NCBI GenBank assembly: GCA_945881915.1
Contig: CAMCVW010000012.1
Span: forward strand, 1 to 64,000
Direction of reading: 5' to 3'
DNA from: Thermoflexus hugenholtzii JAD2
GTDB taxonomy: Bacteria; Chloroflexota; Chloroflexia; Chloroflexales; Roseiflexaceae
DNA length: 64,000 nt
Shown here: positions 38,126 through 41,009 of the stretch, in pieces
Numbering within the stretch: the first letter of the stretch is position 1
Layout: every line of letters starts with the position of its first letter
Position numbers and translations under genes: made by a program
The notes under the pieces: generated by a model
What the model saw: only the letters and a program-made list of their open reading frames with translations
What the model was told of the DNA's origin: nothing
The model's database searches: none

Positions 38126-38824
38126 TTATTCGAAGGAGGGAATCAAGTCTCCGCCCATCTCCCATGACTTCAGGTATGGATATGGCGATATCTGGCCGCG
38201 TCGCGCTTCCCAATCATCGGGTGTGCTTGGCCGTGAAATCCCGAAGTGCAGATGCGGCGGGGTGAATCGTGCGTTCCCTGATTTGCCAGTCGACCCTAAG
38301 ACTTGTCCTGCTTGGACCGTTTGACCCACGTGCAACCCGTCGGCAATGGTCGCTAAGTGCGACCCATAGTAGCGCACCCCGTCGCTCCCAATAATTGCGA
38401 CAGCTAATCCGCTCCGGTCAGCGGGTACATCCGTCGCTGGATCCCAGAGGTCTTCGGGAACGATCGCATCTACAATCCCATCCGTCACCGCGACGAATGC
38501 GCTCCCCGAATCACAAAATATGTCCGTCGCCGGGTAGTCATGATGCTCTGCACCGTACGACACAGGTGCATGAGGTACCGGGAATACATACACCGCAACC
38601 GGGAGCGGGGTACTGCTCGGTATCGCTGTGTGTTGCGGCTCTGGTGCAGTCGTCCGCGTGGCCGAGTTGTGTGTAACTTCGGTGCGTTTTATTGGCACTG
38701 TGGTTGTCTGTTGCTTCTGTGGGAATGGGGTTTCGCCTATTTGCTGCGGGAGTTCGTCGGTGATTTGTGCACACGCACAGATCATCGTTGCACAGCTCAG
38801 GATGCAGAGAATATAGAGCCGCAT
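38126..38824 (-). CDS. M23 (LytM-like) peptidase lipoprotein
   Basis: A 232-residue exported protein. The start at 38824 gives a signal peptide (MRLYILCILSCATMICAC) with a lipobox-like end; a Thr/Pro-rich spacer follows. The peptidase domain shows HHDYPATDIF, where the first His and Asp bind zinc, and PPHLHFGIS with the last His ligands. These enzymes cut peptidoglycan cross-bridges. It lies 22 bases upstream of rbsK on the same strand. Confidence 0.88.
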   Translation of the reverse strand: MRLYILCILSCATMICACAQITDELPQQIGETPFPQKQQTTTVPIKRTEVTHNSATRTTAPEPQHTAIPSSTPLPVAVYVFPVPHAPVSYGAEHHDYPATDIFCDSGSAFVAVTDGIVDAIVPEDLWDPATDVPADRSGLAVAIIGSDGVRYYGSHLATIADGLHVGQTVQAGQVLGSTGKSGNARFTPPHLHFGISRPSTPDDWEARRGQISPYPYLKSWEMGGDLIPSFE

Positions 38825-38966
38825 GGCACCGCCAACCTTCGTAAAATAATAGCGTAAGCATAGCACACAACGTCTTTCAATCCGTTCAAAACCGTGCTGC
38901 AAGAAAACATGAAATATTGGCATTCATATGCCGAAAACAAAGTATCGATTATAAGGTCTTTCGCAC

Positions 38967-38994
38967 TTGACTTTTGCTGAATATCTACTATAAT
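38967..38994 (+). promoter_or_regulatory. Strong sigma-70 promoter of the decarboxylase leader
   Basis: TTGACT at 38967-38972 and a perfect TATAAT at 38989-38994 are separated by 16 bases. It is the best promoter in the window and predicts a start near 39001, giving an unusually long leader of several hundred bases. Confidence 0.75.
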
Positions 38995-39107
38995 ATCGTC
39001 CGGTAGCAAAACTACTGAGATTCTTGCCCCCGGCAGGAGCAACGCTTCTGAACGGTCATGGTGCACAATGGTGTCAGATGACTTCCGGTCGGCTTACGAG
39101 AGGGTAT

Positions 39108-39224
39108 ATGGACGCTAACGCAAACAAACGAATGGGTGGCTATGTCTCGCTAGCTCCTGTCTGTGACTGTGTGGTGTTCGTTGCTCATGCAATAGGGACA
39201 TATCAAGCTCCTCCACAGGTCTAA
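39108..39224 (+). CDS. Possible 38-residue leader peptide
   Basis: An ATG at 39108 preceded by GAGAGGG, encoding MDANANKRMGGYVSLAPVCD and 18 more residues, then TAA at 39222. It covers the 5' arm of the proposed antiterminator stem (39130-39141), so ribosomes on it would influence folding. The peptide resembles no family I know. The ribosome binding site is the main support. Confidence 0.4.
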   Translation: MDANANKRMGGYVSLAPVCDCVVFVAHAIGTYQAPPQV

Positions 39225-39254
39225 GCGCAAGTACCAAACTTTTGCGTCGCAGAG

Positions 39255-39287
39255 CCACCCGTTCATCTGAGATGAGCTGGTTTTTTT
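39255..39287 (+). terminator. Putative leader terminator
   Basis: CCA and TTCAT pair with ATGAG and TGG around an internal loop, followed by TTTTTTT at 39281-39287. The stem is weak but the T run is long. It lies after the proposed promoter and before the decarboxylase gene, so it would act as a regulated stop. Confidence 0.45.
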
Positions 39288-39306
39288 GTGCGTAAAGGAT
39301 GAACGA

Positions 39307-39426
39307 ATGATCAAGCAATGGCTTGTAATGGTGTCACGGGACACTGTCCGCGCTCATACGTCGTGCTGGTTGACGAGTCGTCATGCCAGTCTGCTCGTGG
39401 TTCGGGTTCGTCTGCGTGGGCTCTAG
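39307..39426 (+). CDS. Possible Arg-rich 39-residue upstream frame
   Basis: An ATG at 39307 with AAGGA seven bases upstream, encoding 39 residues with six Arg, three of them in the run RVRLRG just before the stop TAG at 39424. It ends 50 bases before the preferred start of the decarboxylase gene. An Arg-rich peptide before an arginine-consuming enzyme suggests translational sensing, but this is inference. It overlaps a longer alternative N terminus of the decarboxylase in another frame. Confidence 0.35.
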   Translation: MIKQWLVMVSRDTVRAHTSCWLTSRHASLLVVRVRLRGL

Positions 39427-39476
39427 CCCACGAATCGGTTTTTCTGCGTTTTGCTGTGGAAGGAGCATTCACTGAA

Positions 39477-41009
39477 TTGAACGGTACCACCTATATCGAA
39501 CACCTCGCACATCGTTATGGTGTGCAACCTGAAGGTGCATTGAACGCATTTATCAGTCGTCATGATGGCCAACTCTACCTCGATGAGCGTGTCTGCCTCA
39601 ACACTTTGGCAGAACAATACGGTGCTCCACTCGAAGTGTCGTTCTTGCCATTGATCACCAAACAAATCGTGCAGATGCACACCTATGCCGAAGCAGCGCG
39701 TTTGGCAGCAGGGTATCAGGGTTCATTCGTGTATGCCTACGCGACGAAAGCAAATTTCGCCGAAGAAGTAGTGCGAACCGCATTGCAGTCAGGTGCCCAC
39801 TACGAAACATCCTCCGCAGCTGACATCATCATCGCCCACCAACTGTGGCGTCAAGGTGTTCTACGTGCAAATCAGTATATGTTCTGTAACGGTTCGAAAG
39901 ACCTTGGCTACCGCAAAGCTATTCTTGCGCTTCGTGAAGCGGGTCATGAACAGCTCATTCCCATCGTTGACGACCTCGATGAGTTGGCGTACCTCAGCAG
40001 TCATTGTCAGGTACCGATGCAATTTGGGGTACGTGTTCGCTTCGACATTGGCGATGTCGATCCCGACCACCCCGGTGGCGAACGTTTTGGTCTGACACAC
40101 AGCGAAATAGATAGTGCCGTCGCGATGTTGGTGGGCACACCACATTCCATCGTCATGTACCATGCCATGGTGGGCAGCCAAATCGAAGACGCCCATGTAT
40201 GGAAGATTCAACTTTCTTCCGCGGTTGACCGATATGCAGCGTTAGCCCATCGCATTCCCACATTGCGCATGTTCAATTTCGGCGGCGGTATGCCGACGGA
40301 TAGTTATCAACTCGATTTTCAATTCGATTGTCAAGCGTTCTTACAGACACTCATGTCGGCACTCGTGGATGCATGCGCACAATACGGCACTCCCCATCCA
40401 GAGCTCGTCGGAGAATTCGGTCGATACACCGTCGGTTCGCATACGGTCTATTTGATGGAAGTCGGTGCGGTCAAACCCGGCCGCGGAGGCGCGCCCGATT
40501 GGTATCTGCTCAACGGCAGCCTCATGGTGTCGCTCCCCGATATGCTCATTGTCGAGGGGCAGCAATTCATCGTTCTGCCGCTCAATGAATGGCATCTGCC
40601 GGCCCGCCCGGTGCGCTTGGCAGGACGCTATACCTGTGACACCGATGACTTCTATCCACGCCCTGGTCAACCGCCACTGTTACTTCCGAACGGGGGCGAA
40701 GGAACGATTCTGGCGTTCTTCGGGGTCGGTGCGTATCAGCAGATGTTATCGGGACGCGGTGGTGCGCATCATTGTCTCACTCCCGAAATGCGCCGTATCA
40801 CCATCGAAGCAGATGGTGATGAGCTTGTCGTCCGTGAGACACCGCCGCAACATCTCAGTGATATCATGAGCTTGCTGGGTTACAACAATGCCACACTCGA
40901 ATTGGGGATTCGTCGCGGCGAGCAAAACGCCGAACGCTCCATCGTTCGTTCGTTCCGAATGCCCGTCAAGCGGAGCGCCCGGATGTGGAAGCGAGCCCGC
41001 CCGGTCTGA
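39477..41009 (+). CDS. Arginine-decarboxylase-like PLP enzyme (fold type III)
   Basis: About 510 residues. The PLP-binding Lys lies in YAYATKANF, and VMYHAMVGSQIEDA, FNFGGGMPTD and GEFGRYTVG match the barrel of SpeA/LysA-type decarboxylases. Features such as MFCNGSKDLGYRKAIL and the C-terminal extension favour the biosynthetic arginine decarboxylase branch, which makes agmatine for polyamines. Diaminopimelate or other amino-acid decarboxylases are alternatives. Start choice is open: TTG at 39477 has GGAAGGAG 11 bases upstream and opens the conserved region; an in-frame ATG at 39318 would add 53 unconserved residues without a site. A terminator follows. Confidence 0.75.
   Translation: MNGTTYIEHLAHRYGVQPEGALNAFISRHDGQLYLDERVCLNTLAEQYGAPLEVSFLPLITKQIVQMHTYAEAARLAAGYQGSFVYAYATKANFAEEVVRTALQSGAHYETSSAADIIIAHQLWRQGVLRANQYMFCNGSKDLGYRKAILALREAGHEQLIPIVDDLDELAYLSSHCQVPMQFGVRVRFDIGDVDPDHPGGERFGLTHSEIDSAVAMLVGTPHSIVMYHAMVGSQIEDAHVWKIQLSSAVDRYAALAHRIPTLRMFNFGGGMPTDSYQLDFQFDCQAFLQTLMSALVDACAQYGTPHPELVGEFGRYTVGSHTVYLMEVGAVKPGRGGAPDWYLLNGSLMVSLPDMLIVEGQQFIVLPLNEWHLPARPVRLAGRYTCDTDDFYPRPGQPPLLLPNGGEGTILAFFGVGAYQQMLSGRGGAHHCLTPEMRRITIEADGDELVVRETPPQHLSDIMSLLGYNNATLELGIRRGEQNAERSIVRSFRMPVKRSARMWKRARPV

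Follow-up and report, generated by a model that had tools for sequence, protein, structure and literature searches.

From the sequences of the window, the 64,000-nt stretch of DNA analysed here, and of its relatives, we conclude that the leader of an arginine-decarboxylase-type gene represents a real, order-wide and previously uncatalogued attenuator-type regulatory RNA. In the reading that we consider moderately probable, the leader is a two-stage transcription attenuator controlling the decarboxylase gene, composed of a sensor-like 5' domain and a terminator controlled by a short upstream open reading frame (uORF).

Architecture and conservation of the decarboxylase leader

The leader extends over ~475 nt from the predicted transcript start to the preferred TTG start codon at 39477. 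Its elements, together with the gene that they precede, are the following:

38967..38994 (+), sigma-70 promoter TTGACT-16-TATAAT; consensus scan, 11 of 12 consensus bases, also upstream of orthologues
about 39000 (+), predicted transcript start, placed from the promoter
39002..39016 (+), P1, hairpin at the 5' end (39002-39006 with 39012-39016); partner-swap test
39026..39033 (+), P2, 5' strand (GCCCCCGG), pairing with 39085-39093; partner swap and pair counting
39085..39093 (+), P2, 3' strand (CCGGTCGGC), ending just before the uORF1 ribosome-binding site; covariation
39098..39104 (+), Shine-Dalgarno sequence GAGAGGG of uORF1; read from the sequence, with a Shine-Dalgarno sequence before the uORF in most relatives
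39108..39224 (+), uORF1, 38 codons and TAA (MDANANKRMGGYVSLAPVCDCVVFVAHAIGTYQAPPQV); start and open frame kept in 71 of 71 leaders
39130..39141 (+), putative antiterminator strand inside uORF1, the first arm of the stem in the initial annotation; shuffles and genus conservation
39253..39264 (+), partner of 39130-39141, overlapping the base and 5' arm of terminator 1; duplex and fold
39255..39287 (+), predicted terminator 1: hairpin 39261-39277, basal CCA/TGG pairs 39255-39257/39278-39280, T7 39281-39287
39307..39426 (+), uORF2, 39 codons and TAG (MIKQWLVMVSRDTVRAHTSCWLTSRHASLLVVRVRLRGL); best start ATG 39307, Shine-Dalgarno sequence AAAGGA
39415..39432 (+), hairpin 2, enclosing the uORF2 stop codon and followed by GGTTTTT; possible second terminator, covarying versions
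39460..39465 (+), Shine-Dalgarno sequence AAGGAG of the decarboxylase; conserved in orthologues
39477..41009 (+), arginine-decarboxylase-type PLP enzyme with alanine-racemase fold and TTG start; PF02784 at 1.6e-14, SpeA best below its cutoff, PDB neighbours

SpeA models are the best-scoring family for the enzyme, yet the curated model stays below its cutoff (139.6 bits vs 369), and the nearest solved chains in the PDB are biosynthetic arginine decarboxylases. As the SpeA cutoff is not reached while SpeA is still nearest, we use the label 'arginine-decarboxylase-type'; arginine is the presumed substrate. Nearly all orthologues keep the TTG start; a few have GTG instead. This rare start codon persists throughout the order and often reads TTGA, in which the stop codon of another frame overlaps the start; translational coupling at this overlap is possible. 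The in-frame ATG at 39318 was considered as the true start and rejected: the frame is open, but changes by codon position (38/25/24) have no third-position excess, compared with 2/2/21 in the gene itself. The leader of about 475 bases proposed in the initial annotation is therefore right, and the near-consensus promoter described there is likewise kept in relatives. The intergenic region with the leader promoter is common to a divergent gene (38126-38923, -) that resembles an M23-type peptidoglycan peptidase.

Orthologues were identified by protein searches, and their leaders were then fetched and read. The decarboxylase is present in 25 of the 26 family genomes and in 81 of the 158 class genomes. 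Every Chloroflexales leader of sufficient length (71 of 71, from four families) has a sigma-70 promoter, P1, P2 and a uORF of 22-42 codons in identical order. In the genomes examined these elements and the decarboxylase stay linked, normally with a single copy of each. More distant homologues in other families of the class (L106-L109) have leaders without a uORF. The conservation of uORF and terminator across the order bears out the attenuator layout first proposed, and excludes that neither stem nor small frame is conserved among relatives. As to the second objection foreseen there, a transcript start close to 39477, the conserved promoter and 5' domain favour the predicted start near 39000. 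An occurrence of the P1/P2 element before other genes was rejected with model R1, which covers the excised domain and is sequence-only because MAFFT misplaced the helices in a first alignment-based covariance model (A1/R1). R1 matched only decarboxylase leaders and, via the uORF start, M-box leaders; the remaining matches are at about chance level for 158 genomes.

A covarying 5' domain

The strongest structural evidence comes from P1 and P2, two helices absent from the initial annotation, which had recognized the 39130/39253 stem but missed P1, P2, the hairpin at 39415-39432 and the order-wide conservation. In a partner-swap test, which takes no account of phylogeny, P1 reaches z=-8.0 across 33 lineages (0 of 20000 permutations); P2, with lineages swapped in the same manner, also gives z=-8.0 (0 of 20000), and a neighbouring control window gives no signal. 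Within each of two clades taken separately, P1 has a p of about 0.008 and P2 is significant. This, together with the many distinct helices, argues against inheritance alone. Examples of P2 variants are GCTCATCTGG/CCAGATGAGC, ACCCACTCGA/TCGAGTGGGT and GCTTTCCTGG/CCAGGGAAGC. A blind scan of 2127 window pairs ranked P2 first; second came the pairing of the late uORF with the terminator, the uORF segment and the terminator 5' arm reaching a z of about -5. The outer P2 pairs were counted on a registered P2 alignment, used because MAFFT misplaced the helices and leaning towards structure: 97% of cells are paired, vs 87% for shuffles and no more than 65% after sliding; changes are two-sided in 4 of 4, and 0 of 500 shuffles are as good. 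Partner swapping used fixed windows and has no such lean. The fold of the whole leader is also stronger than that of shuffles (z -2.8; 2 of 100 as good).

P2 stops 13-15 nt short of the uORF start codon and adjoins the uORF ribosome-binding site. We postulate that P1 and P2 together act as a sensor-like domain, which would set how well or when uORF1 is translated. Two other pairings were rejected. The P2 5' strand as an anti-Shine-Dalgarno sequence has no covariation and does no better than shuffles. Some Roseiflexaceae folds pair the start of uORF1 with its positions +60 to +125, a pairing that has no order-wide covariation.

Inside P2 lies an 83-nt block that Chloroflexaceae genera share at 86-95% identity, with one copy per genome (L072, L075, L095, L101; G032:C1:1536035-1536117); other clades have a different sequence in its place. 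The block is a possible clade-specific aptamer core.

These features bear on a simpler explanation, a riboswitch alone, in which P1/P2 would bind a small molecule or cation and directly govern termination or access to uORF1, uORF1 being a passenger or an independent small protein gene. The covariation of P1/P2, the strongest of all, agrees with it, as do the 83-nt block and the placement of P1/P2 where sister leaders have the M-box aptamer. The interior of P2, the expected site of an aptamer core, nevertheless differs between clades, most families lack a U tract after P2, and the start of the uORF, the length of its frame and its distance to the terminator are all conserved. We consider the riboswitch alone unlikely and prefer an attenuator in which the 5' domain works through uORF1.

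uORFs, predicted terminator and proposed switching

uORF1 opens with ATG at 39108 behind a good ribosome-binding site and covers the first arm of the stem, in agreement with the initial annotation. Its counterparts start with ATG[G/A]AC (M-D/N) in 71 of 71 Chloroflexales leaders, most of which have a purine-rich ribosome-binding site before it. With frame, start and Shine-Dalgarno sequence conserved order-wide, it appears to be a short translated-type leader ORF. We located the uORFs by searching for the pattern TATG[AG]AC. Every leader gave a match in the expected position behind P2, so the invariance of codon 2, always GAC or AAC and never GAT or AAT, is not a product of the pattern. Given a GAC:GAT usage of 43:42 at gene starts, this invariance indicates a constraint at the nucleotide level as well. 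The N-terminus M-D/N-G/V-x-x-N-L/I/V recurs throughout the order while its codons 3, 6 and 7 vary synonymously, and the peptide overall is weakly constrained, with synonymous changes at only about 1.3 times the expected number. Most of the peptide thus seems less important than the start region as RNA and translation as such.

A nascent-peptide sensor like SpeFL/Orf34 would place more weight on the peptide: uORF1 would stall the ribosome upon a polyamine-pathway metabolite, and the stall position would set termination. The location before a polyamine-pathway decarboxylase fits this model, as does the order-wide N-terminus with its synonymous variation, and the uORFs of M-box leaders have a common N-terminus of their own. 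The barely constrained remainder of the peptide and the nucleotide constraint at codon 2 stand against it, and only ~7 N-terminal residues are shared, short of a conserved metabolite-sensing peptide of the SpeFL/Orf34 kind. On balance, such a sensor appears improbable.

Soon after the uORF stop, most leaders have a predicted intrinsic terminator; the scan detected none in a few. Sequence prediction thereby places an intrinsic terminator between the short ORF and the gene, as in an attenuator. The T tract of terminator 1 (CTGGTTTTTTTGT) is identical in 8 of 8 genus members. Often the U tract is followed by a TGCCC motif (TTTTTTNTGCCC; e.g. L010, L040, L046, L048), which also stands after the second terminator of Herpetosiphon, where leaders L046 and L047 have two tandem terminators between uORF and decarboxylase.

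The pairing of 39130-39141 with 39253-39264, claimed in the initial annotation, is well founded as a duplex: its energy is -23.8 kcal/mol vs a shuffle mean of -12.2, and 0 of 100 shuffles are as good. The overlap with the seven-T hairpin, claimed alongside it, is present at 39255-39264 but only partial, and in the minimum-energy fold most of the stem coexists with the upper terminator hairpin. Both strands are kept in the genus, with changes that are one-sided or absent, so the covariation suggested as a check on this stem is absent in the genus itself; it appears in the equivalent pairing of Roseiflexaceae and two allied families (f3 and f4). There, covariation links the uORF segment lying 45-20 nt ahead of the stop to the 5' arm of the terminator (p=0.0004) and not to the 3' arm (p=0.6), as an antiterminator predicts; the counterpart of this pairing in the window is the 39130/39253 stem. 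Chloroflexaceae give no such signal (p about 0.2), and the switching step may therefore differ between families, or be wrong. An antiterminator exclusive of the terminator is supported in the covarying families, only partly exclusive in the window and unsupported in Chloroflexaceae. In the proposed mechanism, the progress of the ribosome on uORF1 would select either terminator 1, turning the gene off, or the pairing of the uORF1 segment with the 5' side of the terminator, turning the gene on, a direction that we infer.

The same arrangement of a good start followed by a terminator could belong to a small protein gene with its own terminator that lies upstream by chance, the decarboxylase having another, unseen promoter; an M-box uORF of Mycobacterium is suspected of a function of its own (PMC12810186). 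Against this reading, which we regard as very improbable, constraint on the uORF1 peptide is weak, the decarboxylase remains linked to promoter, P1, P2 and uORF in the genomes examined, normally with one copy of each, and the terminator overlaps the alternative pairing in Roseiflexaceae.

The second small frame of the initial annotation is confirmed as uORF2 (7 Arg of 39 residues), which is found only in the window genus, where 7 of 8 members have the frame. Between the closest three members, 15/14/30 changes fall on the three codon positions; 18 are synonymous, vs 9.2 expected. Hairpin 2 occurs in at least five covarying versions (CGTGGGCT/AGCCCACG, CGTGGT/ACCACG, GTGGTG/CACCAC, GCGTGG/CCACGC and GCGTGAA/TTCGCGC), and intact uORF2 frames have their stop codon within it, followed by a T-rich stretch, an arrangement that resembles pyrBI. 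In the window genus, a ribosome finishing uORF2 would keep hairpin 2 open, providing a second step.

In the window genus, uORF2 has the C-terminus RVRLRGL or RIRQRG, adjoining hairpin 2. These endings recall a classical attenuator in which scarce charged Arg-tRNA stalls ribosomes at Arg codons, and consecutive Arg codons are used by Orf34 of Salmonella speF (PMC6386406). In uORF1, by contrast, Arg is not enriched across 35 lineages (12.2% in frame vs 12.8 and 10.6% off frame) and one uORF1 is Arg-free, on which ground Arg-codon attenuation through uORF1 was rejected; uORF2 itself is confined to the window genus. Such an attenuator is highly unlikely as an account of the leader. Of the amino-acid sensing first suggested, the part resting on Arg codons is unsupported for uORF1 and possible only for uORF2 of the window genus.

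Magnesium riboswitch leaders and comparison with known systems

Three R1 matches outside the decarboxylase leaders are M-box Mg2+ riboswitches, scoring 112-113 bits, within the 105-127 bits of genuine M-boxes of the order. Behind the aptamer, 24 of 25 M-box leaders of the order, including 11 of 11 in Roseiflexaceae, have a uORF starting with M[D/E]; one of the 24 starts with TTG, and the 25th leader has a different short frame. Examples are MDEGGHRSQRR, MDDGSHRSQRRR, MEEGGSHRWRWR and MDVSSHSRRRG, and these uORFs have a shared N-terminus of their own, M[DE][DE]x[GS]H. Where read, the M-box leaders have the order aptamer, hairpin, MD/ME-uORF and terminator-like hairpins, the hairpins judged by eye and unscored. 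These 25 M-box leaders (L128-L152, e.g. L133, L130, L140) precede genes for Mg2+ transport or hydrolases, and the start of their uORFs is mostly acidic, extended as M[DE][DE]x[GS]H...RR. Such an acidic N-terminus recalls MgtL of enterobacteria, a Mg2+-sensing leader peptide. The window's own genus has no M-box. As a general companion of riboswitches the MD-uORF was rejected: it is absent behind 13 cobalamin riboswitches in six of these genomes.

In the decarboxylase leaders, P1/P2 is positioned where the M-box aptamer stands in the sister leaders. Because an MD-type uORF and a terminator-like hairpin also follow M-box riboswitches in the order, our best guess for the signal is a polyamine or Mg2+. 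The common uORF-plus-terminator design hints that Mg2+ and polyamine supply are controlled in related ways. Extending this, P1/P2 might be a new sensor feeding the uORF-terminator module also found behind the M-box, forming an undescribed order-wide class of cation- or polyamine-responsive leaders in which one translational relay tunes Mg2+ uptake and polyamine synthesis; we offer this tentatively, as a possibility against which we still lean. Bacteria coordinate polyamine synthesis with Mg2+ uptake, through mechanisms that have been described as unknown (PMC12421838), and there are few convincing cases of a leader that senses polyamines (PMC10853860). An order-wide leader class before a polyamine-pathway decarboxylase, with the uORF-terminator design of Mg2+ riboswitch leaders, is a concrete, testable candidate for this coordination.

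Rfam 15 gave no match at the gathering score, the M-box (RF00380) included, in the window or 11 relatives, upholding the initial statement that no described class matches. At E<=0.5, 18 leaders gave nothing convincing, the best sub-threshold matches being implausible and none of them an M-box; a hidden M-box or other Rfam family in the decarboxylase leaders was rejected accordingly. The published surveys searched make no mention of a decarboxylase leader in Chloroflexi, though an unindexed description may exist. We conclude that the leader belongs to a known kind of regulation and to an undescribed class.

Among described systems, the orf34/speFL leader of speF in Salmonella and E. coli (PMC6386406) likewise has a short uORF in a long leader, premature termination, alternative RNA structures and a polyamine-pathway decarboxylase. 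It differs in its Rho-dependence and consecutive Arg codons, compared with a predicted intrinsic terminator and no Arg enrichment here, and in gene, peptide and phylum. The spermidine riboswitch, a SAM-I variant (PMC10853860), is also a polyamine-gene leader acting via transcription termination; no decarboxylase leader has a SAM-I-type match, and here a uORF intervenes. The alpha-proteobacterial speF RNA motif (RF00518) is a structured leader before a polyamine-synthesis decarboxylase, whereas the leaders described here have no Rfam match. Trp-like (1:2, 2:3, 3:4) and pyrBI-like attenuators have a leader ORF, a terminator and an antiterminator pairing, as in Roseiflexaceae; in contrast to them, the decarboxylase leaders have no run of regulatory codons and have an extra covarying 5' domain before the leader ORF. 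The M-box (ykoK, RF00380) leaders of Chloroflexales are alike in their MD/ME-type uORF followed by terminator-like hairpins, and the pe20 M-box of M. tuberculosis (PMC12810186) in its structured 5' RNA, conserved uORF and premature termination before the main gene. Here, however, P1/P2 takes the place of the M-box, and the predicted terminators are intrinsic. A translated uORF combined with a structured RNA domain was reported for an M-box only recently (PMC12810186), and the decarboxylase leader would be a further case of this combination.
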